A stretch of DNA of 28,064 bases from a virus: the IMG/VR virus record IMGVR_UViG_3300033144_001553, positions 1 to 28,064 of that record; one strand, written 5' to 3'. The notes beneath the pieces are model-generated. The model did not search any database and was not told the DNA's origin. It was given only the letters and a program-made list of their open reading frames with translations. Below, piece by piece: positions 4,804 through 27,598 of the stretch. The position numbers and the translations under genes were made by a program. Every line of letters starts with the position of its first letter. The first letter of the stretch is position 1.

Positions 4804-7028
4804 CTAATAATTTCGCTTATTGTACCTTTATTACTATACCTTGCAAAGTTAACCTTTATTTTTGAAACTTTTTGCCTTGGTATATATAGGTGTTTCTGAC
4901 AAGCCATAATCGCTAAACCCGAGGAAATACTAGCATCATACTTTGTTCTATTGCTAATGTCAAATTTTGCCCAATCCTCTAAAGTTCTTGTGAAAATGCA
5001 ATCACCCATTTCATTATTTTGTTTCATTCCTATATTTGCATCTATATAAGATTCAATTGCAGAAGCGTGTGCTTGTTTTACCGCTTCACTTGAGTTAGGA
5101 ATACCACCCAATTCTCTTTCTGTTTTTGATAATTTGTTATAGTGTTTATCAGGTCTATTTAAACAAAAATTTCTATATCCTCTATTTTTAAAATGATATA
5201 ACAATCTAGGTTTATTGTTTTCTATTAATATTGGCATACCATAAAACACACAAGCTTTTAATACATCTTCAAAAAATATCTCTGCAGTTTGTGGTCTAGC
5301 AATATATTCTAAAAAAAATTCATTACTTGGAGCGTCATCCATATTAAACATAGTTAATCCGTGTAATGCTCCATTAGAACCACCACCACCTACAGTCCCT
5401 GATATATCATAACTATCACACCCAAATGCACCTATGTGTTTATTACCCGGTGATTTTTTACCGTTTATGTTTTCTACTCTGTTTTGTAAATTTTTTGAAG
5501 GAGTCCAAGAAACATAAAATCTACCTCTTTGATTTGGAGTAAATTCAACCTTAGAATCTTTTATACCATTCTTCCAAACCAAATCTCCTCTAGTCAAATG
5601 ATGGTCTATAATTAATGAATCATTATAATCTATCTGTTGATATATTTTAGTTAGATTAAATATTGATTGTTTGCTCTCATCTCTAAATGCGTGAGATTCA
5701 GTTCTAGGAAATTGTCTATAAAATTCATTTAATGCATCAGGGTCTTTCTTTAAAGATTCAACCTCGTTATTCCAATAGTTAACTGCACCTTGATATATGG
5801 TTTCTCCATCAATTCCTTCTACTCCTTGTTTAGGATTTTCAAATACAGGCATTCCATATTTATCTATAAACCCTTCCATATTCCATTCCATTGGGATGAA
5901 AAGTGAATACATACCGCTTTTGGTTTGACCATTAGCGTTTCGTTTTAATACATTAGAATTATTGTATAGACTTTTAAAGTTGTCACCCCCTTTGTCTAAA
6001 GCATTTGAGGTTGAACCCATCATACATTTTCCAATAATTTTACTACCAAGACGTAGACAGGTTTTGGTTACCCTCCAATTATTTAAAATATTATTAGGCT
6101 TTATCCATTTACCACTTTCATCGTGAACCAATAACAAAAGTTTTTCTCCATCATAAGAGTTGTCATCTGTGTTCTTCCAATCTATTGTGGTGTCTAATCC
6201 ATACAACTCATCATTAGTTGTATCGTACATATTTTTTTTAGTTATCTTTGCAGCCGGAATCCTAAAAGCTAATTCTGTTTTAGGTTTATCCATACCATCC
6301 ATAATAGGCTTAAAGAAGAATGGCAATCTGCTATTGATTGGAACAACTTTATCTGTAAACATTTTTTTTGCATCTGAACCCGTCTTAGACAGTATGCCAA
6401 CTCTTGAATCTTTAGCTAGAGTACCTGTGTTTACACACTCAGAAGAAGACATAAAAGAAAAACCTGAACGTCTTATTTTTAAATAAATCATTCCAAAGCT
6501 TCTTCTGTCAGCCTTACAAGCTTCCCAATAAATAAACAATAATCTATTAGCTTCTCTAAAATCAGGATAACCGACATCAATAGATGTCCATTGTAAATAC
6601 ATATAATGTGCTCCTGTTATGTAGGTAGAGATACCGTTTGATTTATACCATAAACCTTGTTCTCTTCTATCAAACTCTTCTTCTATATAATCAACCCATC
6701 TGTCTTTAAATTCTGAAGACATTTCATTCCATTGAAATATAGATTGAATTTTAGATAAAGCTTTTGGCAGTTCTTGTCTTTCCCAATATTGTTCTTCTTT
6801 TTTTGAGTGTCTTTGAAGACACTTTTTAGGCTCTAATGGTAATGCAATACTTAGTCCTTGAATTGAAATTATATCTCCTATTTGTCCGCTTTTAGATATG
6901 ATAACAATATCATACTTTGAATCATACCCGTATTCCCACGTTTTAGCCTTGTTCTTAGACGTTAAAACATTTTTTGGTACAATACCCTCAAGTACTTGAT
7001 ATAATTTATTTAGACCTTCTTTCTGCAA
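4800..7028 (-). CDS. Terminase large subunit (TerL)
   Basis: 742 residues. It is the DNA-packaging motor: an N-terminal ATPase threads DNA through the portal and a C-terminal RNase H-like nuclease cuts the concatemer. Seen in the sequence: a deviant Walker A at residues 186-192 (RRSGFSF), Walker B plus catalytic Glu at 297-304 (LLLLVHDE), a coupling-type motif GSTSN at 338-342, PRTESHAF at 441-448 as in many TerL linkers, and a first nuclease acidic motif around D538/D541 (GCDSYDISGT). The frame overlaps the upstream small gene by 23 bases and the portal by 4. One copy of the 16-nt repeat lies in the 5' part (codons about 69-75, read as C-L-Q-R-H). The call is firm. Confidence 0.9.
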   Translation of the reverse strand: MQKEGLNKLYQVLEGIVPKNVLTSKNKAKTWEYGYDSKYDIVIISKSGQIGDIISIQGLSIALPLEPKKCLQRHSKKEEQYWERQELPKALSKIQSIFQWNEMSSEFKDRWVDYIEEEFDRREQGLWYKSNGISTYITGAHYMYLQWTSIDVGYPDFREANRLLFIYWEACKADRRSFGMIYLKIRRSGFSFMSSSECVNTGTLAKDSRVGILSKTGSDAKKMFTDKVVPINSRLPFFFKPIMDGMDKPKTELAFRIPAAKITKKNMYDTTNDELYGLDTTIDWKNTDDNSYDGEKLLLLVHDESGKWIKPNNILNNWRVTKTCLRLGSKIIGKCMMGSTSNALDKGGDNFKSLYNNSNVLKRNANGQTKSGMYSLFIPMEWNMEGFIDKYGMPVFENPKQGVEGIDGETIYQGAVNYWNNEVESLKKDPDALNEFYRQFPRTESHAFRDESKQSIFNLTKIYQQIDYNDSLIIDHHLTRGDLVWKNGIKDSKVEFTPNQRGRFYVSWTPSKNLQNRVENINGKKSPGNKHIGAFGCDSYDISGTVGGGGSNGALHGLTMFNMDDAPSNEFFLEYIARPQTAEIFFEDVLKACVFYGMPILIENNKPRLLYHFKNRGYRNFCLNRPDKHYNKLSKTERELGGIPNSSEAVKQAHASAIESYIDANIGMKQNNEMGDCIFTRTLEDWAKFDISNRTKYDASISSGLAIMACQKHLYIPRQKVSKIKVNFARYSNKGTISEIIR
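4844..4851 (-). promoter_or_regulatory. Possible internal -7 box (TAACTTTG) upstream of portal gene
   Basis: The minus strand reads TAACTTTG within the last codons of TerL, about 41 bases before the portal ATG. It matches TAnnTTTG, but lies inside coding sequence, so it could be chance. Confidence 0.25.
6807..6822 (-). repeat. 16-nt hairpin repeat, copy 1 (within TerL gene)
   Basis: Perfect copy of GTGTCTTCAAAGACAC on the minus strand, the sense strand of TerL. It is flanked by A and T that extend the inverted repeat to 18 bases. The reading frame (C-L-Q-R-H) differs from the V-S-S-K-T frame used by the other in-gene copies, so the conservation is of nucleotides and not of protein. Confidence 0.9.
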
Positions 7029-7329
7029 ATCCTTGTTTTGTATCAGTTTTTTTCGCTCCCCTTTCTAAAGATTCAATAGCTTCTTTCTCTGCTTCTATTC
7101 TATTTAAAATTTCAAAAGCATCAAAGATTGCTAATTTCTTTGTAGCTGCCGCATTCTTTAATCTATCAGCAGACAAATCATCTTCAGGGTCGTGTTTAAT
7201 TATCGCTTCCTTCGCCACCTTTATCAGTTGTTCCACTGCTCTGTGACCTGCTTCTATTATTTTTAATTTTATTTCTTTTGATTTCATTTTTAATTCTTTT
7301 CTTTTTTCTGATTGGAAAATTACTTCCAT
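7006..7329 (-). CDS. Putative small terminase subunit or terminase-associated small protein
   Basis: 107 residues from the ATG at 7329; an internal ATG at 7287 (MKSKEIKLKIIEAGHRAVEQ) gives 93 residues and may be the true start, because the first 14 residues are poorly structured and Lys-rich. The rest is helical and charged (residues about 15-85). It lies directly upstream of TerL and overlaps it by 23 bases, the usual place for the small subunit that recognises phage DNA. No helix-turn-helix could be identified with confidence, so the role is inferred from position and size only. Confidence 0.55.
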   Translation of the reverse strand: MEVIFQSEKRKELKMKSKEIKLKIIEAGHRAVEQLIKVAKEAIIKHDPEDDLSADRLKNAAATKKLAIFDAFEILNRIEAEKEAIESLERGAKKTDTKQGFAERRSK

Positions 7330-7393
7330 CGTGCTCGTTCCATTCGTCTTCCCAAAAAATATAACTCATATGTAATTTAGATATAGTTCTCAA
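7196..7393 (-). CDS. Uncertain short overlapping ORF
   Basis: A frame of 65 codons from a TTG at 7393, or 57 from an ATG at about 7369 (MSYIFWEDEWNEHDGSNFP), overlaps the N-terminal half of the putative small terminase gene in another frame. The first 25 residues look protein-like and fill the gap between the neighbouring genes; the remainder is low-complexity Lys/Arg/Asn sequence expected from a shadow frame. It may be a short real protein, or the two frames may once have been one gene split by a frameshift. Low certainty. Confidence 0.25.
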   Translation of the reverse strand: MRTISKLHMSYIFWEDEWNEHDGSNFPIRKKKRIKNEIKRNKIKNNRSRSQSSGTTDKGGEGSDN

Positions 7394-7953
7394 AGTATCA
7401 TTGTTATTTGATGGTCAAACATTCTATAAAGTTTTTCTCCATCAACATTAAACTCATATTCACTTTCAGGTTTGTAACACACCTTAACTCCTTTTGTAAC
7501 CCCTTTTGATTTTAAATATTCATTAGGATATTTTATAATTCCAATCAAAGGTTCTTCACTTAATGGTTTATAAATATAAGAATCTTCTACCGGTGCAGGT
7601 TTTATAAAACAATATCTATTTATTGCATTCCATTCTATACCATTATGATATGCATAATATTGTTCTTCATCTATAAAAAACAAATCGTCTTTAAAATAAC
7701 TTTTCCCACTTTGAATCTTTCCTTGCATATCATTATAATATTTAAAAACATTATGATGGACAAGTAGGGTGTCACCTTTTTTTATTGGTCCACTATAATT
7801 AAGGGGAAGTTCTATAACTTTTGCTTTTCGATTAGAGAACCTATGGTCCTCTTGAGATGTACTTAATATAAAATCAATATCTCCGTAAGTTTTGGTATTA
7901 TCGTACCTTTTACCTTTTAAAGGCTTTACGATAAAAGATGTTGGTGATTTCAT
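7390..7953 (-). CDS. Tandem GroES-like fold protein (putative)
   Basis: 187 residues not assigned by a simple motif, but the sequence reads like two consecutive co-chaperonin (Cpn10) beta-barrels. First repeat: FIVKPLKGKRY (7-17), IKKGDTLLVHH (57-67), LFFIDEEQYYAY (91-102). Second: RYCFIKP (113-119), IGIIKYPNEY (137-146), VTKGVKVCYKPESEYEFNVDG (152-172) and a terminal Y-R-M-F-D-H-Q-I-T-M-I-L resembling the GroES ending 'DGEEYLILREDDILAVI'. The equivalent of the GroEL-binding mobile loop is not obvious. It sits at the head of the terminase genes, away from the true groES-like gene at 19947-20204. It could be an assembly factor or a structural protein that reuses the fold. The fold call is an inference by eye. 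Confidence 0.5.
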   Translation of the reverse strand: MKSPTSFIVKPLKGKRYDNTKTYGDIDFILSTSQEDHRFSNRKAKVIELPLNYSGPIKKGDTLLVHHNVFKYYNDMQGKIQSGKSYFKDDLFFIDEEQYYAYHNGIEWNAINRYCFIKPAPVEDSYIYKPLSEEPLIGIIKYPNEYLKSKGVTKGVKVCYKPESEYEFNVDGEKLYRMFDHQITMIL

Positions 7954-7961
7954 AATTTAAT

Positions 7962-8147
7962 TTATGAGCCACAACCAATACAATCTATATATGAATCAGT
8001 TGGCTTGACTCCATTTAATTTCATTTTAATATTATGGATTTTATCTGCAAGTTCCATTTCTTGCTCAAATGTTAGATTGGGTTGTTTCTTTTGTTCTGTA
8101 TAAATTTCAAGTTGTTCTTGTAACAACTGATTGGCTAAATCTGACAT
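7962..8147 (-). CDS. Small hypothetical protein with C-terminal CxxC
   Basis: 61 residues: a Gln/Glu/Leu-rich helical body (LANQLLQEQLEIYTEQKKQ) and a C-terminal tail ending DCIGCGS, whose CxxC could bind metal or form a disulfide. It is spaced 3 bases from the upstream gene and 8 from the downstream one, so it is part of the fibre-to-terminase transcription unit. No family is recognised. Confidence 0.65.
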   Translation of the reverse strand: MSDLANQLLQEQLEIYTEQKKQPNLTFEQEMELADKIHNIKMKLNGVKPTDSYIDCIGCGS

Positions 8148-8150
8148 TCA

Positions 8151-8375
8151 CTAAAAGTTTATATTGTATTCAATAGATATAGGCATAGTACTTGTGAACT
8201 CTTTCCACAATAAAATTTCTCCATCACTCTCTATATAAATTAATATAGAATCTCTTTCTATATCATATTTAATTAAATGAATAACATAGCTTCCATTCAA
8301 TATTACTTGACCTACTAAATAATGCATTGCACCCGATTTATAGTCAGGTCCTACTGAAATCTTTCTAATATCCAT
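8151..8375 (-). CDS. Small hypothetical beta-rich protein
   Basis: 74 residues (MDIRKISVGPDYKSGAMHY...), alternating hydrophobic/polar pattern typical of a small beta protein, without Cys pairs or membrane segments. Its ATG overlaps the stop of the preceding fibre gene by one base (TAATG), so translation is probably coupled. The N-terminal KISVGPDYKSGAMHY region feels familiar from marine phage structural regions, but no function is known to me. Confidence 0.65.
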   Translation of the reverse strand: MDIRKISVGPDYKSGAMHYLVGQVILNGSYVIHLIKYDIERDSILIYIESDGEILLWKEFTSTMPISIEYNINF

Positions 8376-10396
8376 TACACTAATTTATGAATAGCAACCC
8401 ACGAACCCGGAGCAGTAGGCATACTTGCAACATTAGTTGCTACAGTTTGAATTCTACATTGCAGACCTGATACTGTTCCAAGTAGATTTAATCTATCTCC
8501 ATCATTTGTAACAGTTATTGGGAAACCAACTTCCCAACCACCTGCGATTGCATCACTAATTTGATGAACCCAAGTTTGTAAATATGGATTACCATTTACT
8601 ACTGCAGTAAACATTGCATATTGAGTTGTGATGTCTTGGTTAGCCATATTAATACCAAAGTTTACAAAATAATTTCCGGGAGTTACAAAGATAATATCTC
8701 CTGTACTTGTGATTTGTACGTCAGCAGTAGTTTGTCCCTTACCAAAAAGTATTGTTGTTGCTACAGTTGGTTGCATTGATTGAGTAGCATTTTCTACATC
8801 CTCAATAACTTTTGTCATAGCCATAGGTGTACTATTGACTGTAACTGCACCTATACCTGAAGGTGGACTAATACTTACATTTGTTCCCGGAACAATTTGA
8901 GTTACTCCACCACCTCCTGATGGAACTTCCCATTGTGTTTGAACCTCTGAACCATTAATACTTTTAACTGCTAATACTTGAGATTGTAGAGTTGGTACTG
9001 TTTCAGGTAAAATTATTTCTTGTTTTGCACCCTGAGCAGGAGCCAATAAAGTCATTGTTTCAGGACTACCTTTTCCTGCACCTGTTTCTAGTTCAATTTT
9101 ACCACCTAAAGTTGAACCGTTTCCTTCAACCCTTAAACATCCTTCTTGACTTGTTGGAGCAGCAGATTTACCTAATGTTAGTTTAGCATAACTTGAATCA
9201 AAAGTTAATCCTACATAAGCACCAAATGCACCATTATCATTAAATTGAACTTGTCCATCAAGACCTGCAGGACTTCCTGTTCCACCTGCAAAATTAATTA
9301 CAGTTGGACTACTAGAGTTATCCATAGTAACACCTGAACCTGTAAACTCAAACAATCCTGATTCTGTAGTATTACCAACCTTAATGCTATTTACTGTATT
9401 AACTGATTGAGCACTTATAGTTAAAGTTTTAACACCTTGTGCATCAGTATTTACTGAACCTGATAGACCTGAACCTATAGTTACTTTATCATTCCAATAT
9501 CCGTTTTGAGTATCTGCCGCATCTATTTTAAATTTATCATCAGCACCACCACCACCTGATGGGGTTGGTATCCAATTTAATTGACCGTTACCATCGTTTT
9601 CTAAAATGGTATTTGTACCCCCTTGCTTTTGTGGGAAATGAATATAATAATCATCACTTGCTTCTTGTGTAGTACAACCTGCTAAGTGTACATAGTTACC
9701 TGCTCTATGTTCTACTGCTGCATTACCATAATTAATAGCATCACCTAGACCATAAGTATCGAGAGTTACCTGACCGGCTTTCTCCTTTCCACCTAGAGTA
9801 TGTTCTGAAAAATCAGTACCCAATACATAAGTATTGTATTGATTCCCTTCAAACACACCACCTGTTCCGTGATACTGAACATCTTGAGGTGCACCTCCCG
9901 GTGTACCACCACCACCTGTTCCATTGGCTGCTGCAGTAATAATACCTTGAGCATTAACAGTTATGTCAGCATTGGTATAAGTTCCTGTTACACCTTGGTC
10001 AATTAAGTTAAAATCAAATGTTCCCGAATTGCTTCCTTGAATAACTAAGTCATTAGACTTAAATGTCAATTGGTCTTGATTTTCATCAATAGTTTGAGTT
10101 GTACCTGAATTACCTGTTACATCAAATTTACTTAATCCACCACCACCAATAGCTGAACCATCAATAGTTATGTCGGTACCGGAAGCACTAATAGTAATGC
10201 CTCCTGTACCTAGTAAAGTAAGTTCTCCTGTTAATGTGTTTAGTGACTGAACGGAAAGACCTCCACCCGGTACTAACGCAAGAATATCTCCAATCCTATA
10301 ATTTTTTGTAATCAACTCATTATCGACATCAGTACCTATTACTTTGTCGTTAATAGTTGGTATTGCATCTACAGGGTATGTTGCTATTCTTGCCAT
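8375..10396 (-). CDS. Tail fibre/appendage protein with C1q-like end
   Basis: 673 residues, Gly/Thr/Ser-rich beta repeats. Residues 1-45 (MARIATYPVDAIPTINDKVIGTD) match the N-terminus of the 14585-15334 protein (MARISTYPIDTELVGADKWIGTD), so the two share an attachment domain by duplication. The middle holds fibre repeats such as GTYTNADITVNAQGIITAA, which recur in the 12449-14563 protein. The last about 140 residues (ILFGKGQ... GNYFVNFGINMAN ... GSWVAIHKLV) look like a C1q/TNF-type jelly roll, often receptor-binding. It probably acts outside the virion in host attachment. No intramolecular chaperone motif is evident. Confidence 0.75.
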   Translation of the reverse strand: MARIATYPVDAIPTINDKVIGTDVDNELITKNYRIGDILALVPGGGLSVQSLNTLTGELTLLGTGGITISASGTDITIDGSAIGGGGLSKFDVTGNSGTTQTIDENQDQLTFKSNDLVIQGSNSGTFDFNLIDQGVTGTYTNADITVNAQGIITAAANGTGGGGTPGGAPQDVQYHGTGGVFEGNQYNTYVLGTDFSEHTLGGKEKAGQVTLDTYGLGDAINYGNAAVEHRAGNYVHLAGCTTQEASDDYYIHFPQKQGGTNTILENDGNGQLNWIPTPSGGGGADDKFKIDAADTQNGYWNDKVTIGSGLSGSVNTDAQGVKTLTISAQSVNTVNSIKVGNTTESGLFEFTGSGVTMDNSSSPTVINFAGGTGSPAGLDGQVQFNDNGAFGAYVGLTFDSSYAKLTLGKSAAPTSQEGCLRVEGNGSTLGGKIELETGAGKGSPETMTLLAPAQGAKQEIILPETVPTLQSQVLAVKSINGSEVQTQWEVPSGGGGVTQIVPGTNVSISPPSGIGAVTVNSTPMAMTKVIEDVENATQSMQPTVATTILFGKGQTTADVQITSTGDIIFVTPGNYFVNFGINMANQDITTQYAMFTAVVNGNPYLQTWVHQISDAIAGGWEVGFPITVTNDGDRLNLLGTVSGLQCRIQTVATNVASMPTAPGSWVAIHKLV

Positions 10397-20365: not shown

Positions 20366-21961
20366 TTAATTTTTATCCTCGTAAGTCCTAGCCATTGTTA
20401 TAATAGCATTGGTAGAAAGAATAGTTACTGCTACAGACACTGCGTTCTGCAATGCCGACTTAGTTACTTTTAACGGGTCAATAACACCCAACTTATACAT
20501 ATCTCCCCACTTGCCTTCTTTTACATCGAACCCATTATTATATCCGATTTTGTTGCTTTCAACAGAAGCCTCATATTGACCTTCATATTTTATTCCTGCG
20601 TTCTCCCATATTTGTTTTAAAGGAGCACGAAGTGCTCTCGCTAAAATTTGTTTAGCTACAGTATCATCACCTATATTATAAGACTCTTGCATTAAAGCTG
20701 AACCACCACCCGGAAGTATACCTTCTTCTAAAGCTGAACGTACTGCACATACTGCATCATCAATCCTATCATAAAGTTCTTTTTGTTCTAGGTCAGTTTG
20801 ACCTCCAACATAAATAACACCTACACCACCTGTGAGTGTTGCAATCCTTGATAGTATAAACTCTGCATTGTTTTTATCTGATTCTCTTTTGTGTGCTTCT
20901 TTTAATTCTTTAATTCTTTTATAGATTTCGCCATCTCCAATAACATCATCTTTAATGATGACGGTTGAGTCACGACCAACTATCACCTTAGCACAGTGAC
21001 CCAAATCTTCTAACGTCATCAAGCTTAAATCATCACCGGTCTTTTCACTATAGTAAGTGGCACCAACACTTAAAGCAATGTCTTGCATTAGTTCGTGTTG
21101 TTTGTATCCAAATGATGGGGGTCCAATAGTACAAAGCTTTAATCCGTTCTTCATTACATTCGCAGCTAGAGTGTTTGTTACATTAGCTGAGGTTGGTGCA
21201 ATAATTAATAATCTTTTGTTTTCTGAGATTACAGGTTTTAAAACATTCTCTATGTGTAGTAGGTTTTCAATAGGTGCATCACTAACTAGGATATAACAAT
21301 CTTCTAGTATACACTCATCTTTCTTTTGGTTGTTTACAAACAAAGGTGATTCATAACCTCTTTCAACCTTTAGTCCGTTTGTAGATTCATAATATGTTTC
21401 TGATGTTTGAGACCTATCAATAGTAACCAATCCGTTTATACCTACCTTTTTATATACATCTGATATAATAGCACCCAACTCTTTATCGTTGTTTGCTGAT
21501 ATAGTAGCAACGTCTTTTAATTTTTTTTGTGTAACTTTTGTCGATTTCTTTTTTAAGTTATCGCATACAGTTTCTGTTAGAGAAACTAATTCTCTTAATA
21601 CTGATGTTTTATTTTCAGTTATTAGTTCTGCTCCTGCTTTGACTAAAGCTTCTGTAAGAACAATTGCAGTTGTGGTTCCATCACCTGCTGAGGTTGCAGT
21701 TCTTTCTGCTGCCTCCTTCATCATCTTCACCGCAAGGTGTTCGGTTGGGTCTAATAGTGCAACGGACTTAGCTACAGTTACTCCGTCTTTAGTTACTGTT
21801 ATTCCGTGTGTGTGTTGTGGGGATTCAATTAAAACTGTTTGACCGGCAGGTCCTAGCGTAGACTTTACTGCAGAAGATAATGTTTCAATTCCTTTGTATA
21901 GTTTTTTTCTACCCTCTTCATTGAACAATAAGTTCTTTGGAGTATATCCTATATTAGACAT
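20366..21961 (-). CDS. groL: Phage GroEL-like chaperonin
   Basis: 531 residues, near the 548 of E. coli GroEL. ATP-dependent folding chamber. ATPase motifs are intact: LGPAG (36-40), TKDGVTVAK (57-65), GDGTTTA (93-99), and the late DDAVCAVRSALEEGILPGGGSAL with the Asp matching catalytic D398. The apical domain is divergent. The C-terminus stops at ARTYEDKN and lacks the Gly-Gly-Met tail that lies within the bacterial cavity. Expressed from a TAnnTTTG promoter 24 bases upstream, with a small gene and groES. Chaperonins encoded by phages are uncommon (Pseudomonas phiKZ-like EL is a studied case); here it presumably folds capsid or long fibre proteins. Confidence 0.93.
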   Translation of the reverse strand: MSNIGYTPKNLLFNEEGRKKLYKGIETLSSAVKSTLGPAGQTVLIESPQHTHGITVTKDGVTVAKSVALLDPTEHLAVKMMKEAAERTATSAGDGTTTAIVLTEALVKAGAELITENKTSVLRELVSLTETVCDNLKKKSTKVTQKKLKDVATISANNDKELGAIISDVYKKVGINGLVTIDRSQTSETYYESTNGLKVERGYESPLFVNNQKKDECILEDCYILVSDAPIENLLHIENVLKPVISENKRLLIIAPTSANVTNTLAANVMKNGLKLCTIGPPSFGYKQHELMQDIALSVGATYYSEKTGDDLSLMTLEDLGHCAKVIVGRDSTVIIKDDVIGDGEIYKRIKELKEAHKRESDKNNAEFILSRIATLTGGVGVIYVGGQTDLEQKELYDRIDDAVCAVRSALEEGILPGGGSALMQESYNIGDDTVAKQILARALRAPLKQIWENAGIKYEGQYEASVESNKIGYNNGFDVKEGKWGDMYKLGVIDPLKVTKSALQNAVSVAVTILSTNAIITMARTYEDKN

Positions 21962-22828: not shown

Positions 22829-22844
22829 TTGTCTTCAAAGACAC
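22829..22844 (+). repeat. 16-nt hairpin repeat, copy 3 (15/16)
   Basis: TTGTCTTCAAAGACAC, differing from the consensus only at the first base, in the noncoding control region, plus orientation. Followed by TTTTAT. Confidence 0.75.
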
Positions 22845-23101: not shown

Positions 23102-23746
23102 ATGAGTGAATTACTAAGTATCGAGTCAGCATTTCTGAATAGTTCGGAAATTAAGACTGCTCTTAATCTCACTGAAGTGAGACGAGTGCAAAGGAGCATA
23201 AACAATGCACACAAATCTAAATTCAATCACACTACGAAGTTATCGAAGTTGATTGGGAATGCAGTTCGTTGGTTTGAATCTGAAGAGGGACAAGAGAAAA
23301 TGCGTGAAGAGGGAATCGAATGGAGCAAAGCCGAATTCGGTCAGAAGACTTTCGGATATCAAAAATCTTTCTTCTACAAGCTAGTGAAAGTAGCTAACCT
23401 AGATGAAAGAATTCTAGATGCATTTAACCAAAAATGTGATGAGATTGGAACAGATGCAAATCGTTCAATTGCGGGTCTTCTTGAATTCTCAAGAAACATT
23501 GACCTTGATGCTATCGAAGTTAACGAAGATGCTACAGAAGAAGAAATTGCTCAAGCAGAGCAAGAAGTTATCGAGTCTACTGAAGTAGAGCAAGAGAGAA
23601 CAAATTACTTGTTCGTTATGACTTACAAAAATCCTCAAGGAAATAACCTATCGGTTAGAATTGATGATAGCGGTAATGTTAGCGGTAATAACCTAGAAGA
23701 AATTGCAAATGCAATTCAATTCTTACAACAATCAATTAATCAATAA
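23102..23746 (+). CDS. Hypothetical early protein, possible DNA-binding
   Basis: 214 residues, first gene of the right arm. Residues 18-55 are basic and helical (TALNLTEVRRVQRSINNAHK), 56-115 contain FESEEGQEKMREEGIEWSKA and EFGQKTFGYQKSFFYKLVKV with helix-turn-helix-like character, recalling a type of plasmid/phage regulator or replication accessory protein. An acidic linker (about 140-165, EVNEDATEEEIAQAEQEVIE) and a small beta C-terminal domain (YLFVMTYKNPQGNNLSVRI) follow. Likely acts on DNA, but this is inference. Promoter at 23010 and a structured leader precede it. Confidence 0.65.
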   Translation: MSELLSIESAFLNSSEIKTALNLTEVRRVQRSINNAHKSKFNHTTKLSKLIGNAVRWFESEEGQEKMREEGIEWSKAEFGQKTFGYQKSFFYKLVKVANLDERILDAFNQKCDEIGTDANRSIAGLLEFSRNIDLDAIEVNEDATEEEIAQAEQEVIESTEVEQERTNYLFVMTYKNPQGNNLSVRIDDSGNVSGNNLEEIANAIQFLQQSINQ

Positions 23747-23782: not shown

Positions 23783-24730
23783 ATGATAAACGAAATCACA
23801 TACACAAATTCAAACGAATCTCAGAGAGGAAGAATGTCTCGTTACCATTCTTCTCCTCAGCCAAGAGAGATGCACAAAGGTGCTAAGAATACTGATATCG
23901 CAAATCTAAAGACTACCAAAAAACGTAATCTTTTAATAGATGAGAATGGAGACCACAAATCGAAGTTCACTATCGGTATTGAAGTTGAAAAGAACAGATT
24001 AAGTTCTAGAGCAGTGACTGAATATCCTTTGTTCAAAGGATTTGAAAGAGATAGTTCTTGCGGTTATGAAGCTATAACTAATATCTTACCATTGCTACCT
24101 AGCGGTAAATGGAGAAACAAAGTTTTCAATATGATGTTTGAAGCTAGAAAAATTATTGAAGACCAATACTCTCCAAGTGACTACAGATGTGGTGGTCACG
24201 TTACATTAGGTGTTGAGGGAATGAATGGTCAACAGATTATGAAAGCAATCAGAAAAAATTGCGGAATCTTACATTCTTTATTCTTTAAAAGACTTAAGAA
24301 TGGATATTGTAAAAACAATCTAACAATGCTACCATACGATGAGGAAATGATGAATGGTGGCGGTAGATACCAATTCTGTCTAGATAAAGGTAATCTAATC
24401 GAGTTTAGAGTTGTATCTCGTTTCCAATCGGTAAAGCAGATGATGAGAAGATACGAGTTGTTCTATGAGTTACTTGACTTTTCAATTAACAATCCAAATG
24501 GAAACCACAATACATTCCTTAAGAAAATTACTCCAATCGTTAAGTCTATGTACAATGGCGATATGGACAAGGTAAACGAAAAACTTGAGTTGGCTAAGAC
24601 ATTTAGAAAAATGATATTGACCAACAAAGTAAGTAGACCAATCATTGACTATGTTGACCCAATGCGAAGACTTGATGCACAGAAGTGGTACGACAGAGAG
24701 TTACTCAGAAATGGGTACAGAGCAATCTAA
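23783..24730 (+). CDS. Putative amidoligase (carboxylate-amine ligase, glutamine-synthetase-like fold)
   Basis: 315 residues from the ATG at 23783; the in-frame GTG at 23750 lies in the 16-nt repeat and is less likely. Amidoligases (PF12224 type, described by Iyer and colleagues) use ATP to join a carboxylate to an amine. Seen: FTIGIEVE (62-69, metal-binding Glu), ERDSSCGYEA (88-97), CGGHVTLG (136-143), GGGRYQF (192-198) and IEFRVVSRFQ (206-215), in family order. Substrate unknown. The same operon arm carries a glutamine amidotransferase fused to gamma-glutamylcyclotransferase, families often found with amidoligases. The gene ends 11 bases before the hairpin and hammerhead. Confidence 0.75.
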   Translation: MINEITYTNSNESQRGRMSRYHSSPQPREMHKGAKNTDIANLKTTKKRNLLIDENGDHKSKFTIGIEVEKNRLSSRAVTEYPLFKGFERDSSCGYEAITNILPLLPSGKWRNKVFNMMFEARKIIEDQYSPSDYRCGGHVTLGVEGMNGQQIMKAIRKNCGILHSLFFKRLKNGYCKNNLTMLPYDEEMMNGGGRYQFCLDKGNLIEFRVVSRFQSVKQMMRRYELFYELLDFSINNPNGNHNTFLKKITPIVKSMYNGDMDKVNEKLELAKTFRKMILTNKVSRPIIDYVDPMRRLDAQKWYDRELLRNGYRAI

Positions 24731-24736
24731 TCTAAA

Positions 24737-24766
24737 AGGGGTAGTGTCTTCAAAGACACTACTCCT
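24737..24766 (+). other. Extended 13-bp hairpin around the 16-nt repeat
   Basis: AGGGGTAGTGTCT (24737-24749) pairs with AGACACTACTCCT (24754-24766) around loop TCAA, one G-T wobble. No T run follows, so it is not a plain terminator. The last paired base is the first base of hammerhead stem III, so this hairpin would sit near the 3' end of the upstream RNA after self-cleavage. Confidence 0.8.
24744..24759 (+). repeat. 16-nt hairpin repeat, copy 5
   Basis: Perfect GTGTCTTCAAAGACAC in the intergenic region after the amidoligase gene, extended by flanking GTA/TAC and further pairs. Confidence 0.9.
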
Positions 24767-24816
24767 CTGTCTGAGGATGAGTGTCCTCACTGATGAGTTC
24801 AAAAGAACGAAACAGA
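24766..24816 (+). ncRNA. Type III hammerhead ribozyme
   Basis: Self-cleaving RNA between the amidoligase gene and the 24845 gene. Stem III TCTGT/ACAGA (24766-24770 with 24812-24816, open end); cleavage triplet GTC with scissile C at 24771; stem I TGAGGA/TCCTCA (24772-24777 with 24784-24789), loop TGAGTG; core CTGATGA (24790-24796); stem II GTTC/GAAC, loop AAAA (24797-24808); core GAAA (24809-24812). Layout is the same as the tobacco ringspot satellite ribozyme. All invariant core positions are present; loops I and II could make the tertiary contact needed for fast cleavage. Predicted cut is after 24771, giving a 2',3'-cyclic phosphate upstream. I found no second copy, so a circular RNA is unlikely. 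Confidence 0.93.
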
Positions 24817-24844
24817 AACTTTAATTAATTTAAATACACACAAA

Positions 24845-25081
24845 ATGAAAAATCAAATCAGAAATTATGCAGAAACAATTGTTTATGTATCAGTAACATT
24901 AGGAGTCTTCTCAATGGTAGGCAGACTATTAGTCCACATTATTTTTAACGATGCTAGAATGCTATTACAGAGCGTTAGCGGAGTAGTATCAATGCTAGTT
25001 GTATGTGCATTCTTATTGTTCTGTATGTATGCAACAAGTCTACTTATTATAGCTGACATAAAAGAGAGACACAATGCATAG
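24845..25081 (+). CDS. Small two-span membrane protein
   Basis: 78 residues: spans at about 11-33 (TIVYVSVTLGVFSMVGRLLV) and 44-69 (VSGVVSMLVVCAFLLFCMYA), short basic C-terminus DIKERHNA. First gene after the ribozyme, so its mRNA would begin with a 5'-OH at 24772 if cleaved. Helical-hairpin membrane proteins in early phage regions can be superinfection-exclusion or membrane modifiers, but nothing here identifies it. Confidence 0.65.
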   Translation: MKNQIRNYAETIVYVSVTLGVFSMVGRLLVHIIFNDARMLLQSVSGVVSMLVVCAFLLFCMYATSLLIIADIKERHNA

Positions 25082-25244
25082 TGAGAGACAACACTACTAC
25101 AAAGTTAGATATGCAGGTAAGCTAATTAAAGTCTTACCTGCTCATTCTAAATGGGAGGCAATCGACAGAATTTACAATGAAAACATTGGAAGATACAAGT
25201 GGATTGTAAGAGAAAAATTTACTGCAGTTAAATCTAAAAATTAA
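25074..25244 (+). CDS. Small hypothetical protein, 56 residues
   Basis: From ATG at 25074, overlapping the membrane-protein gene end by 8 bases in another frame: MHSERQHYYKVRYAGKLIKV, LPAHSKWEAIDRIYNENIGR, YKWIVREKFTAVKSKN. Short beta-helix-beta look, basic. Fits the gap between neighbours exactly (next ATG 5 bases after the stop). No family is recognised. Confidence 0.6.
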   Translation: MHSERQHYYKVRYAGKLIKVLPAHSKWEAIDRIYNENIGRYKWIVREKFTAVKSKN

Positions 25245-25248
25245 AATT

Positions 25249-25605
25249 ATGTATAAAGTAACATTACAATTCGATACACATAAGATAACTTATGGAACGA
25301 ACAGAGGGCAGTGGGTCTTGACTAAAGAGTTCAATGACCTGAAACACTGCAACAATTTTATAGACTATATATGCCGAACCAAAGGTTATAGCTTAGATGA
25401 ATTATGGTACGAATCAGGATACCCTTTTAAAGAGGGAGATGATTATTGGACAATCGAAAGCGGAACGAAGTTGGTGCGGTCTTGTTGGGATGACCAATCA
25501 GAAGAATTGTTTGACCCGAACAAAATATATTTCACTAGCGAAAAAAGAGCAGAGGAATATAAAGAGAGTATGAAAGATGTAACAATCATAAATCTAAGAC
25601 AATGA
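25249..25605 (+). CDS. Hypothetical protein
   Basis: 118 residues (MYKVTLQFDTHKITYGTNRG...): beta N-terminus, WVLTKEFNDLKHCNNFIDYI helix, acidic middle (YPFKEGDDYWTIES), C-terminal FTSEKRAEEYKESMKD. Two Cys in the middle. Overlaps the transglycosylase gene by 4 bases (ATGA), so co-translated. No recognised domain. Confidence 0.65.
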   Translation: MYKVTLQFDTHKITYGTNRGQWVLTKEFNDLKHCNNFIDYICRTKGYSLDELWYESGYPFKEGDDYWTIESGTKLVRSCWDDQSEELFDPNKIYFTSEKRAEEYKESMKDVTIINLRQ

Positions 25606-26120
25606 AAAAATTAATATTTATATCAGCATTATCTGTGGTTGGATATGTGGGTAGTGATGTGTCTTCAAAGACACTAACTATCCAAGCAGAAGAAGTTCAA
25701 AAGACAGACTCTGTTCTAGTGGTACGGGAGGAAGTAATTCCTCCCAAGCCATTGGCGATAGACACATTGCTAGTCGCAATGATGTATGTAGAATCTAGAC
25801 TAGACTCAACGGCATATGCAAAGAACGAAAATGCCGTAGGAGTTTTGCAGATAAGACCAATAATGGTTAGAGAAGTAAACAGAGTTCTAAAAAAGATGGA
25901 CAAGGAAGAAAGATATACATTGGAAGACCGATGGAGTTTAGTGAAGTCAGTCGAGATGTTTAATATCATCCGAGACTATCACCACAAAGACTCAAGCTAT
26001 GAAACCATAGCAAGATGTTGGAATGGTGGAAGGAGAGGTGATAGAAAAAAATCTACACTTGTGTATTGGGAACGAGTACAAATACAAATAAATAATATCA
26101 ATCAAATTTTAAATAAATAG
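25602..26120 (+). CDS. Secreted lytic transglycosylase (SLT-like)
   Basis: 172 residues. Signal peptide at residues 1-20 (MKKLIFISALSVVGYVGSDV). The mature part has the SLT signature LLVAMMYVESRLDSTAYAKN (56-75) with catalytic Glu at E64 and the typical VGVLQI (83-88), then a helical body and ARCWNGG. It cuts the glycan strand of peptidoglycan, leaving anhydro-MurNAc. Being exported and in the early arm rather than the lysis cassette, it may help DNA entry, exclude other phages or remodel the wall. Residues V20-T24 are encoded by a copy of the 16-nt repeat, just inside or at the signal-peptide junction. Confidence 0.78.
   Translation: MKKLIFISALSVVGYVGSDVSSKTLTIQAEEVQKTDSVLVVREEVIPPKPLAIDTLLVAMMYVESRLDSTAYAKNENAVGVLQIRPIMVREVNRVLKKMDKEERYTLEDRWSLVKSVEMFNIIRDYHHKDSSYETIARCWNGGRRGDRKKSTLVYWERVQIQINNINQILNK
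25659..25674 (+). repeat. 16-nt hairpin repeat, copy 6 (within transglycosylase gene)
   Basis: Perfect GTGTCTTCAAAGACAC in sense orientation, read as V-S-S-K-T near the N-terminus of the transglycosylase. Flanks (GAT before, TAACT after) are unlike other copies. Confidence 0.9.
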
Positions 26121-26122
26121 TT

Positions 26123-26422
26123 ATGACAAACAAAGAACAAATAATCAAAGAGTTAAGAAGAAGAAAGCAGATAGCTAGAGACACTCAAGCTATAGGCAGA
26201 GAAAGATACCTAGCTACACTCATAGAGGGTGTGAAGAATGAATTCAAACCTGCGTATGACGATGAGGGAAAAAAGTTTAGCACCTGCTTTGACAGTATGG
26301 AACTAAGCGGAAACTTTTCAATGCAGTTGAGTTGGTGGAATAATTTTGCAGACTATGTGCAAGAACATAGAAACACTTGCTACAACAATGCTTGTGAATA
26401 CGCAGATGAAAAAGAAATATAA
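26123..26422 (+). CDS. Hypothetical protein
   Basis: 99 residues: basic helical N-terminus (MTNKEQIIKELRRRKQIARD), then a segment with several aromatics (NFSMQLSWWNNFADYVQEHR) and two Cys (NTCYNNACEYADEKEI). Starts 2 bases after the transglycosylase stop, so co-transcribed. No domain is recognised. Confidence 0.65.
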   Translation: MTNKEQIIKELRRRKQIARDTQAIGRERYLATLIEGVKNEFKPAYDDEGKKFSTCFDSMELSGNFSMQLSWWNNFADYVQEHRNTCYNNACEYADEKEI

Positions 26423-26424
26423 GA

Positions 26425-26444
26425 TTAGACTTGCGTATGTCTAA
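26425..26444 (+). promoter_or_regulatory. Inverted repeat, possible operator
   Basis: TTAGAC (26425-26430) and GTCTAA (26439-26444) with 8 bases between, centred about 20 bases upstream of the -7 box at 26454. Position fits a regulator site overlapping the -33 region. Confidence 0.45.
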
Positions 26445-26453
26445 ATTTTGTCT

Positions 26454-26461
26454 TATATTTG
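26454..26461 (+). promoter_or_regulatory. -7 box (TATATTTG) of the GAT-II/GGCT gene
   Basis: TATATTTG within TATATTTGTCCAATC, about 64 bases before the ATG at 26525. Both this and the 23010 box read TATATTTGTC. TTG at 26431-26433 may be the -33 element. Confidence 0.7.
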
Positions 26462-26487
26462 TCCAATCAATTATTAATCAGAGGTCT

Positions 26488-26503
26488 GTGTCTTCAAAGA
26501 CAC
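26488..26503 (+). repeat. 16-nt hairpin repeat, copy 7 (5' leader)
   Basis: Perfect GTGTCTTCAAAGACAC in the untranslated leader of the GAT-II/GGCT gene, 22-37 bases before its ATG. Nearby GAGG (26481) and CCTC (26505) could extend the hairpin across mismatches. Confidence 0.9.
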
Positions 26504-26524
26504 TCCTCACAAATCAAATTAAAT

Positions 26525-27598
26525 ATGTGCGTAATTATTATTAAGCAGAAAAACAATGTGATGACTGAAGAGATAGCCAAGACATCATCACGAATCAATC
26601 CTCACGGATTGGGAATCATTTGGCTAGATACTTTTGAAGTCGAGTATCACAAATCAAAAGACTATCGTAAGCTACTAACCAAGCGACCATTCATTGCACA
26701 CTTTAGATATGCAACAAAAGGTAAAATCAACAAAGCCAACACGCATCCATTCATATGTGGTAACAACAAAGATGAATACCTAATGCACAATGGTACTATT
26801 AAAGGTATGGGTACAGATGAATGTTGTGATAGTAAAGAGTTAGCTTGTCACTTAGGTAGCATTAATCGTAGAGATTGGAAAAAAGAATTGGAGCAGTATG
26901 ACTCACGATTTGTTTCAATCAATGTGCGTACTCGTTCATTTCAAATCTACAACAGAAATCTATATACTTATCGAGATGGCATTTGGTATTCCAAAGCCAA
27001 TGTATTACAAGACAATCTTATCGCAGTGTATGGTACACTAAAGAAAGGTTTCGGTAACTACTATTCATACCTAACTAATGCAAAGCATTTAGGTAGAGGT
27101 AAGACTCAAGACAAGTATCCTTTGTTGGTTGAGGGGTTACCTTATATGGTAGACAAAAAAGGTGTGGGTCACAATGTAGTGGTTGATGTATTTAAAGTTA
27201 GCGATATGCAACTAAAGAACATTGACCAACTTGAAGGACATCCACGTTGGTACAAACGAAAGCTAATACCAATCAAGTTAAAGAATCGTACACTTAATTG
27301 TTGGTTGTACTTTAATCCAAAGGATGTAACAAACAAAGAGTATCACGAATCTTTTGAAAGAACTATTCAGCCAAGAAAATTATTTACGTTTGAAGATGTT
27401 CAGCCAAGTTATGATACCACTGAGTATCACGAGGCAATTGATATAGGTTGGGATGATAATGACTTTCCTACAGACCAAACACCTACCTGCGTAGATTGTT
27501 TCAATGACTTGGAACACGATGCATTCCACAACTATTACTGCTCATCTTGTGGTGGTTGGTTTAAAGAAGATGAGGTTTTAAAATTTAATCAAGAATAA
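26525..27598 (+). CDS. Class II glutamine amidotransferase - gamma-glutamylcyclotransferase - zinc ribbon fusion
   Basis: 357 residues from the ATG at 26525. This start puts Cys at residue 2, the N-terminal nucleophile of class II amidotransferases; upstream in-frame codons (from a TTG at 26459) lie in the leader. Domain 1 (1-150): C2, R61 (RYATKG), N72-H74 (NTHPF), H88-N89-G90 (LMHNGT), D102; it hydrolyses glutamine to give ammonia. Domain 2 (165-285): YGTLKKGFGN (169-178) and catalytic E237 in QLEGHPRWY, the AIG2/GGCT fold that cleaves gamma-glutamyl amides to 5-oxoproline. C-terminus (320-345): CxxC...CxxC zinc ribbon. Such fusions accompany amidoligases; the amidoligase at 23783 is a likely partner. 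Own promoter and 16-nt hairpin in the leader. Confidence 0.88.
   Translation: MCVIIIKQKNNVMTEEIAKTSSRINPHGLGIIWLDTFEVEYHKSKDYRKLLTKRPFIAHFRYATKGKINKANTHPFICGNNKDEYLMHNGTIKGMGTDECCDSKELACHLGSINRRDWKKELEQYDSRFVSINVRTRSFQIYNRNLYTYRDGIWYSKANVLQDNLIAVYGTLKKGFGNYYSYLTNAKHLGRGKTQDKYPLLVEGLPYMVDKKGVGHNVVVDVFKVSDMQLKNIDQLEGHPRWYKRKLIPIKLKNRTLNCWLYFNPKDVTNKEYHESFERTIQPRKLFTFEDVQPSYDTTEYHEAIDIGWDDNDFPTDQTPTCVDCFNDLEHDAFHNYYCSSCGGWFKEDEVLKFNQE

Follow-up and report, generated by a model that had tools for sequence, protein, structure and literature searches.

A divergent amidoligase-like ligase and a glutaminase-cyclotransferase fusion form a predicted compact amide-ligation cassette in a phage

What does a phage make with a carboxylate-amine ligase and a glutaminase fused to a gamma-glutamyl cyclotransferase? 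The question is raised by a viral DNA of 28,064 nucleotides (IMG/VR record IMGVR_UViG_3300033144_001553, positions 1 to 28,064; the window hereafter), a 28-kb phage fragment with divergent gene arms. An earlier note, made from the sequence alone, had placed a PF12224-like amidoligase and a GAT-II/GGCT/zinc-ribbon fusion between positions 23783 and 27598 and proposed for them an amide or gamma-glutamyl modification pathway. Those coordinates are right, running from the ATG of the ligase gene to the stop codon of the fusion gene. Judged from sequence comparison and predicted structure, the two proteins probably constitute a compact phage amide-ligation cassette, the product of which is most likely an amide or gamma-glutamyl-amine linkage on some acceptor.

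The single-chain architecture of the fusion protein (357 aa; 26525..27598, plus strand) was borne out by Pfam, alignment and structure. Its true start is the ATG at 26525 ('MCVIII', ATG-TGC, Met-Cys) and the TTG at 26459 is merely a mechanical open reading frame (ORF) start; we prefer the former because every relative with an intact 5' end begins with MC in the alignment. A class-II, or N-terminal nucleophile (Ntn), glutaminase requires a Cys directly after the initiator Met. The GAT-II glutaminase domain (residues 1-162; 26525..27010, plus strand) matched PF13230 (GATase_4, 2.7e-6) and, in the AlphaFold2 (AF2) model, the fold of E. coli GlmS (VIA Z 8.1) and of the GlmS glutaminase domain (7.7). 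All the elements of an Ntn GAT-II are present, namely the Cys after Met, the Arg, the Asn-Gly oxyanion motif and the Asp (C2, R61, N89, G90, D102). Residues C2, H59, R61, N89 and G90 were invariant in the 94 covered non-redundant sequences, with D102 found in 93 of them and a gap in the other.

The second domain is a GGCT domain of the gamma-glutamylamine cyclotransferase (GGACT) type (residues 163-283; 27011..27373, plus strand; PF06094, 7.7e-21). It resembles mammalian GGACT (A2LD1) in fold (VIA Z 16.7 to the mouse enzyme, over 120 residues at 2.4 A, for the AF2 model) and in active-site residues, and differs from it in being fused to a glutaminase. The YGTL motif and catalytic Glu (E237) are both present; Y169-G-T-L172, E237 and Y243 did not vary in any of the 94 covered sequences and align with Tyr7-Leu10, Glu82 and Tyr88, listed for the mouse active site (PMC2954230). 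The C-terminal CxxC-x13-CxxC ribbon (C322, C325, C339, C342; 27479..27595, plus strand) is recognised by its CxxC pairs, all four Cys being found in 90/90 sequences that reach this part; its Pfam match is suggestive at best (PF13453, Zn_ribbon, E 0.17). From its conserved residues, the fusion is expected to free ammonia from glutamine and to cut gamma-glutamyl groups.

The partner (315 aa; 23783..24730, plus strand) is a predicted divergent glutamine-synthetase (GS)-fold carboxylate-amine ligase of amidoligase-like type, assigned from its AF2 model, fold search, hhalign and conserved residues. Translation starts at the ATG at 23783; a longer GTG ORF from 23750 is not conserved, several relatives having GTC there and only the later Met being common. 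The PF12224 profile, at its curated cut-off, did not match the window ligase, 20 of its relatives or any protein in 17 related records. Pfam and PHROGs searches with the window ligase gave nothing significant, and PDB searches, by single sequence and by profile, gave no match. The AF2 model (predicted local distance difference test, pLDDT, 76) found viral fold matches (E 1e-5 to 1e-3), and those that carry a name are mostly amidoligases. Among the top PDB matches listed were glutamine synthetases, PafA (Pup ligase), Dop (deamidase), YbdK, GmaS and glutamate-cysteine ligase (GCL), with Z up to 7.4 over 186 residues, individual scores that are modest and, taken alone, moderate evidence. The PDB and viral matches both point to a GS-like beta-sheet fold.

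Profile-profile alignment by hhalign of the ligase family with PF12224-positive phage amidoligases gave an E of 9.9e-6, with the TIG-E-E, D-S...E, CGGH, YC..N and EFR motifs lining up. In addition, a bridging protein from a related phage record (L108:5007-6212) matched both the window ligase family (6e-15) and the PF12224 set (1.9e-5). We group the ligase with the amidoligases because these three independent lines (fold search, profile-profile alignment and the L108 bridge) agree; by these comparisons it is homologous to PF12224 amidoligases, though below that profile's detection. We considered and rejected a mis-called ligase, since the same three lines outweigh the empty hidden Markov model (HMM) results. 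The label 'PF12224-like' holds for fold, motifs and hhalign homology, but not for the PF12224 HMM itself. Residues E67, E69, E88, D90, E96, H139, E207 and R209 were kept, with little or no variation, across about 100 sequences, so that catalytic residues, the absence of which would have told against the earlier note, are present in both proteins. Two relatives have unusual ligase genes: in L018 (407-1276) an otherwise conserved frame contains one in-frame TGA stop, reflecting either a pseudogene or a sequence error, and in L042 (12179-12913; MW202828) the ligase has an additional 245-aa N-terminal region with no Pfam match.

To see how regularly the two genes travel together, we used 101 distinct contigs, some gathered by searching with one or the other protein and some taken from phage records. 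Both regions were matched in 86, on the same strand throughout and with a median gap of 1.8 kb; of the remaining 15, most are cut near the missing gene and two are comparison records (L043 and L044). Ligase and fusion occurred together in 85 of the 86, the exception being L108. The ratio of nonsynonymous to synonymous substitution rates (dN/dS) was 0.08-0.21 for the two genes, both of which, by this estimate, are under purifying selection. The co-occurrence predicted by the earlier note is thus found in these 85 contigs and also in a second group of phages, the C75C1-like lineage. The genetic linkage of ligase, GAT-II and GGCT suggests that the three activities act on one product.

That second group (OQ984151 and its IMG/VR relatives L203 and L213-L223) resembles the window phage in having a GAT-II-GGCT fusion adjoining an amidoligase. 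It differs in that the ligase truly belongs to PF12224 (1e-19 to 8e-30) and the fusion lacks the zinc-ribbon tail. In almost all contigs of sufficient length, the ribbon-less fusion lies downstream of the PF12224 ligase; in L214 and L223, which start 1.2-1.5 kb upstream of the fusion, no ligase was found within that stretch. Two ligase clades beside one fusion type are better functional evidence than synteny within a single lineage. The L108 locus (4995-8888) encodes two GS-fold ligases and a GAT-II protein with a Cys-rich tail, and GGCT is absent from the whole 61-kb record. From its sequence, L108 is an intermediate between the window ligase family and PF12224, and a natural GGCT-less case.

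Gene sets of this kind have been described before. The passages of PMC5498523 that cite Iyer et al. and Hardies et al. 2013 describe a 'peptidoglycan modification cassette' in RIO-1/PSA-HP1-, LUZ24- and phiEco32-like podoviruses, consisting of amidoligase, GAT-II and GGCT, usually with an ATP-grasp ligase; a seven-gene version occurs in RIO-1-like phages (PMC5498523). In LUZ24-like phages a COOH-NH2 ligase, amidoligase, GAT-II, ATP-grasp enzyme and GGCT are separate genes (PMC3890496), a set that we also found in the LUZ24-like phage Rembedalsseter. GGCT adjoins an amidoligase in Arthrobacter cluster AL phages (PMC5513430), and OM43 phages have ligase and GAT-II (PMC10580990). Mycobacteriophage Marvin resembles the window in that an amidoligase-like gene (gp105) is followed directly by GAT-II (gp106), and differs in having no GGCT domain. 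The window shares with the RIO-1/PSA-HP1-, LUZ24- and phiEco32-like phages a GS-fold amidoligase, GAT-II and GGCT in one early-gene cluster. Unlike the LUZ24/RIO-1 cassette, it has GAT-II and GGCT in one chain with a ribbon and a ligase below Pfam detection. A further difference is that PF14395 (COOH-NH2_lig), PF08443 (RimK) and the Rembedalsseter ATP-grasp protein had no match in 20 related contigs (51-66 kb, which may lack a few kb; other ATP-grasp families were not searched). The window pair is therefore a compacted variant of the published phage cassette and not a new pathway or kind of system; what is distinctive, relative to the cassettes as described in the citing papers, is the GAT-II-GGCT(-ribbon) fusion, the divergent ligase and the fact that no ATP-grasp or second ligase was found.

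How might such a cassette work? GS-fold ligases form carboxylate-amine bonds in an ATP-dependent manner, GAT-II domains liberate ammonia from glutamine, and GGACT cyclises gamma-glutamyl-amines to yield 5-oxoproline and a free amine. We propose that the ligase would activate a carboxylate with ATP and couple it to an amine, while the GAT-II domain would hydrolyse glutamine to glutamate and the ammonia used in this coupling. The GGACT-type domain would convert gamma-glutamyl-amines to 5-oxoproline and free amine, which would either strip off a transient gamma-glutamyl cap or supply the ligase with an amine. Ammonia or amine may be handed from fusion to ligase, in what we presume to be this order of steps, and the most plausible acceptor would be some component of the host envelope, altered at an early stage of infection. 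Ligase and GAT-II would form the core, as in L108, Marvin and the OM43 phages, with GGCT as an accessory. A bolder version, which we regard as improbable, makes the fusion a bifunctional amine-liberating enzyme, one chain bearing two sites that cleave gamma-glutamyl amides (NH3 from glutamine, R-NH2 from gamma-glutamyl-R) and feeding a minimal, ATP-grasp-free GS-fold ligase, so that a small amine is put on a host envelope or protein carboxylate and competing phages are blocked. If true, this would be a covalent modification not described before.

Three observations weigh against the cassette as proposed. The ligase motif CGGH[V/I][T/S] is without the second His of the canonical HxH. GGCT looks accessory, and not essential to the core reaction, because the L108 ligase travels with GAT-II but without GGCT. 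Lastly, the model of the fusion has low overall confidence (pLDDT 66, predicted template modelling score, pTM, 0.41) and permits no judgement on a channel between domains. The pathway suggested by the earlier note is nonetheless sensible and fits the phage-cassette literature (PMC5498523, PMC10580990), with the reservations that it is a variant of what had been published and that its GGCT step appears dispensable.

The two genes are not adjacent in the window, being separated by four small ORFs. One encodes a putative secreted or membrane-anchored lytic transglycosylase (SLT; 25602..26120, plus strand; PF01464 E 0.002, below cut-off). This protein has an apparent N-terminal signal or anchor and lies in the early arm, whereas an Amidase_2 endolysin and a holin lie in the late arm. 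We rejected an operon-wide peptidoglycan theme as a core feature, since the transglycosylase is present between ligase and fusion in only 10/86 contigs. A small putative membrane protein, also between the genes (24845..25081, plus strand), is outside the conserved core (8/86 contigs). Directly upstream of the ligase is a conserved gene (23102..23746, plus strand) with a homologue near the pair in 82/86 related contigs and no matching Pfam or PHROG family. No conserved dedicated substrate protein was found between ligase and fusion among the 86.

The near-palindrome TGTCTTCAAAGACA, the core of GTGTCTTCAAAGACAC, has seven exact copies in the window, at 6808 and 18705 on the minus strand and at 22830, 23751, 24745, 25660 and 26489 on the plus strand, against a chance expectation of about 0.5 matches even with 2 mismatches allowed. 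Repeat orientation follows the direction of transcription. The early-arm copies are spaced by 829-994 bp, and the start codons of ligase and fusion each have a copy shortly upstream. Of the 86 related contigs, 66 have the core, including forms with TTAA or TCGA at the centre. This pattern suggests an operator for a dimeric regulator; the repeat also folds as an RNA hairpin, and an Rfam search with it gave no match.

The minus-strand arm carries terminase, portal, tail and GroES/GroEL-type genes together with the endolysin and holin, and a tRNA-Arg precedes the start of the plus-strand arm. The GroEL protein (20366-21961, minus strand; PHROG chaperonin groEL, 2e-132) is accompanied by a co-chaperonin GroES-like protein (7390-7953, minus strand; 5.6e-20). 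The terminase shares 73% identity with its counterpart in a Manatee Spring podovirus contig and about 45% with those of elemo-group Flavobacterium phages; Cellulophaga, Tenacibaculum and Maribacter phages gave further matches. Two contigs from metagenome-assembled genomes (MAGs), one Cytophagales and one Flavobacteriales, carry the fusion gene. Given these terminase relatives and MAG contigs, the host is most likely a member of the Bacteroidota. A cellular origin of the fusion was rejected: of the 296 genomes sampled in the phylum to which the Cytophagales MAG (G021) belongs, G021 alone has it, on a phage-sized contig. Stand-alone GGCT occurs in two other genomes of this sample.

Where the product of the cassette ends up can be read in several ways. 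For the parent cassette, the literature offers the hypothesis that the cell wall is modified to keep out superinfecting phages (stated in PMC5498523, and in PMC10580990 citing Iyer 2009). Amidation or capping of stem-peptide carboxylates in host peptidoglycan would cause the wall-degrading entry or lysis enzymes of competing phages to fail. This narrower choice of acceptor is a real possibility, although we lean against it. The putative transglycosylase between the genes and the Amidase_2 endolysin and holin of the late arm fit a wall theme, but the former occurs in only those 10 of 86 relatives. Furthermore, the gamma-glutamyl group must have its alpha-amine free for a GGACT-type enzyme to act, and the D-Glu of the stem peptide is N-acylated. 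The GGCT domain cannot, for this reason, attack the stem itself; were the wall the target, GGCT would have to act elsewhere.

Less probable than a wall acceptor is a purely metabolic role, in which pools of glutamine, glutamate and gamma-glutamyl compounds are tuned during infection (the gamma-glutamyl cycle) with no macromolecular target. All three predicted activities handle gamma-glutamyl or carboxylate-amine chemistry and lone GGCT genes are scattered across many phages, but the strict linkage of ligase and GAT-II, together with the occurrence of one type of fusion next to two divergent clades of ligase, suggests a dedicated product. We think it unlikely that virion proteins or phage DNA bases are modified with amide or amino-acid groups. 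Base hypermodification in some phages does use amidotransferase-containing pathways; however, the stretch between the genes holds no conserved gene for a dedicated substrate protein, and no thymidylate-synthase-fold hydroxymethylase (PF00303) was found in 22 related records (7-deazaguanine genes were not searched). Least likely of all is that the fusion strips gamma-glutamyl or amide marks placed by the host and that the ligase re-modifies a component of host defence. Such counter-defence would suit genes that, like these, lie in the early arm with regulatory-type repeats and at a distance from the structural genes, but the analysis, which did not include a PADLOC search, turned up no known host system of that sort. 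We continue to favour an amide-ligation cassette acting, most plausibly, on a host envelope component.

Predictions of phage amidoligase cassettes go back to 2009, and neither an experimental test of their product nor a knock-out study surfaced in the literature searched. The two-protein version, carried by a large group of phages probably infecting Bacteroidota, is the simplest form for reconstitution in vitro, with GGCT-less L108 and the second lineage with its canonical ligase providing natural comparisons for the role of each domain.

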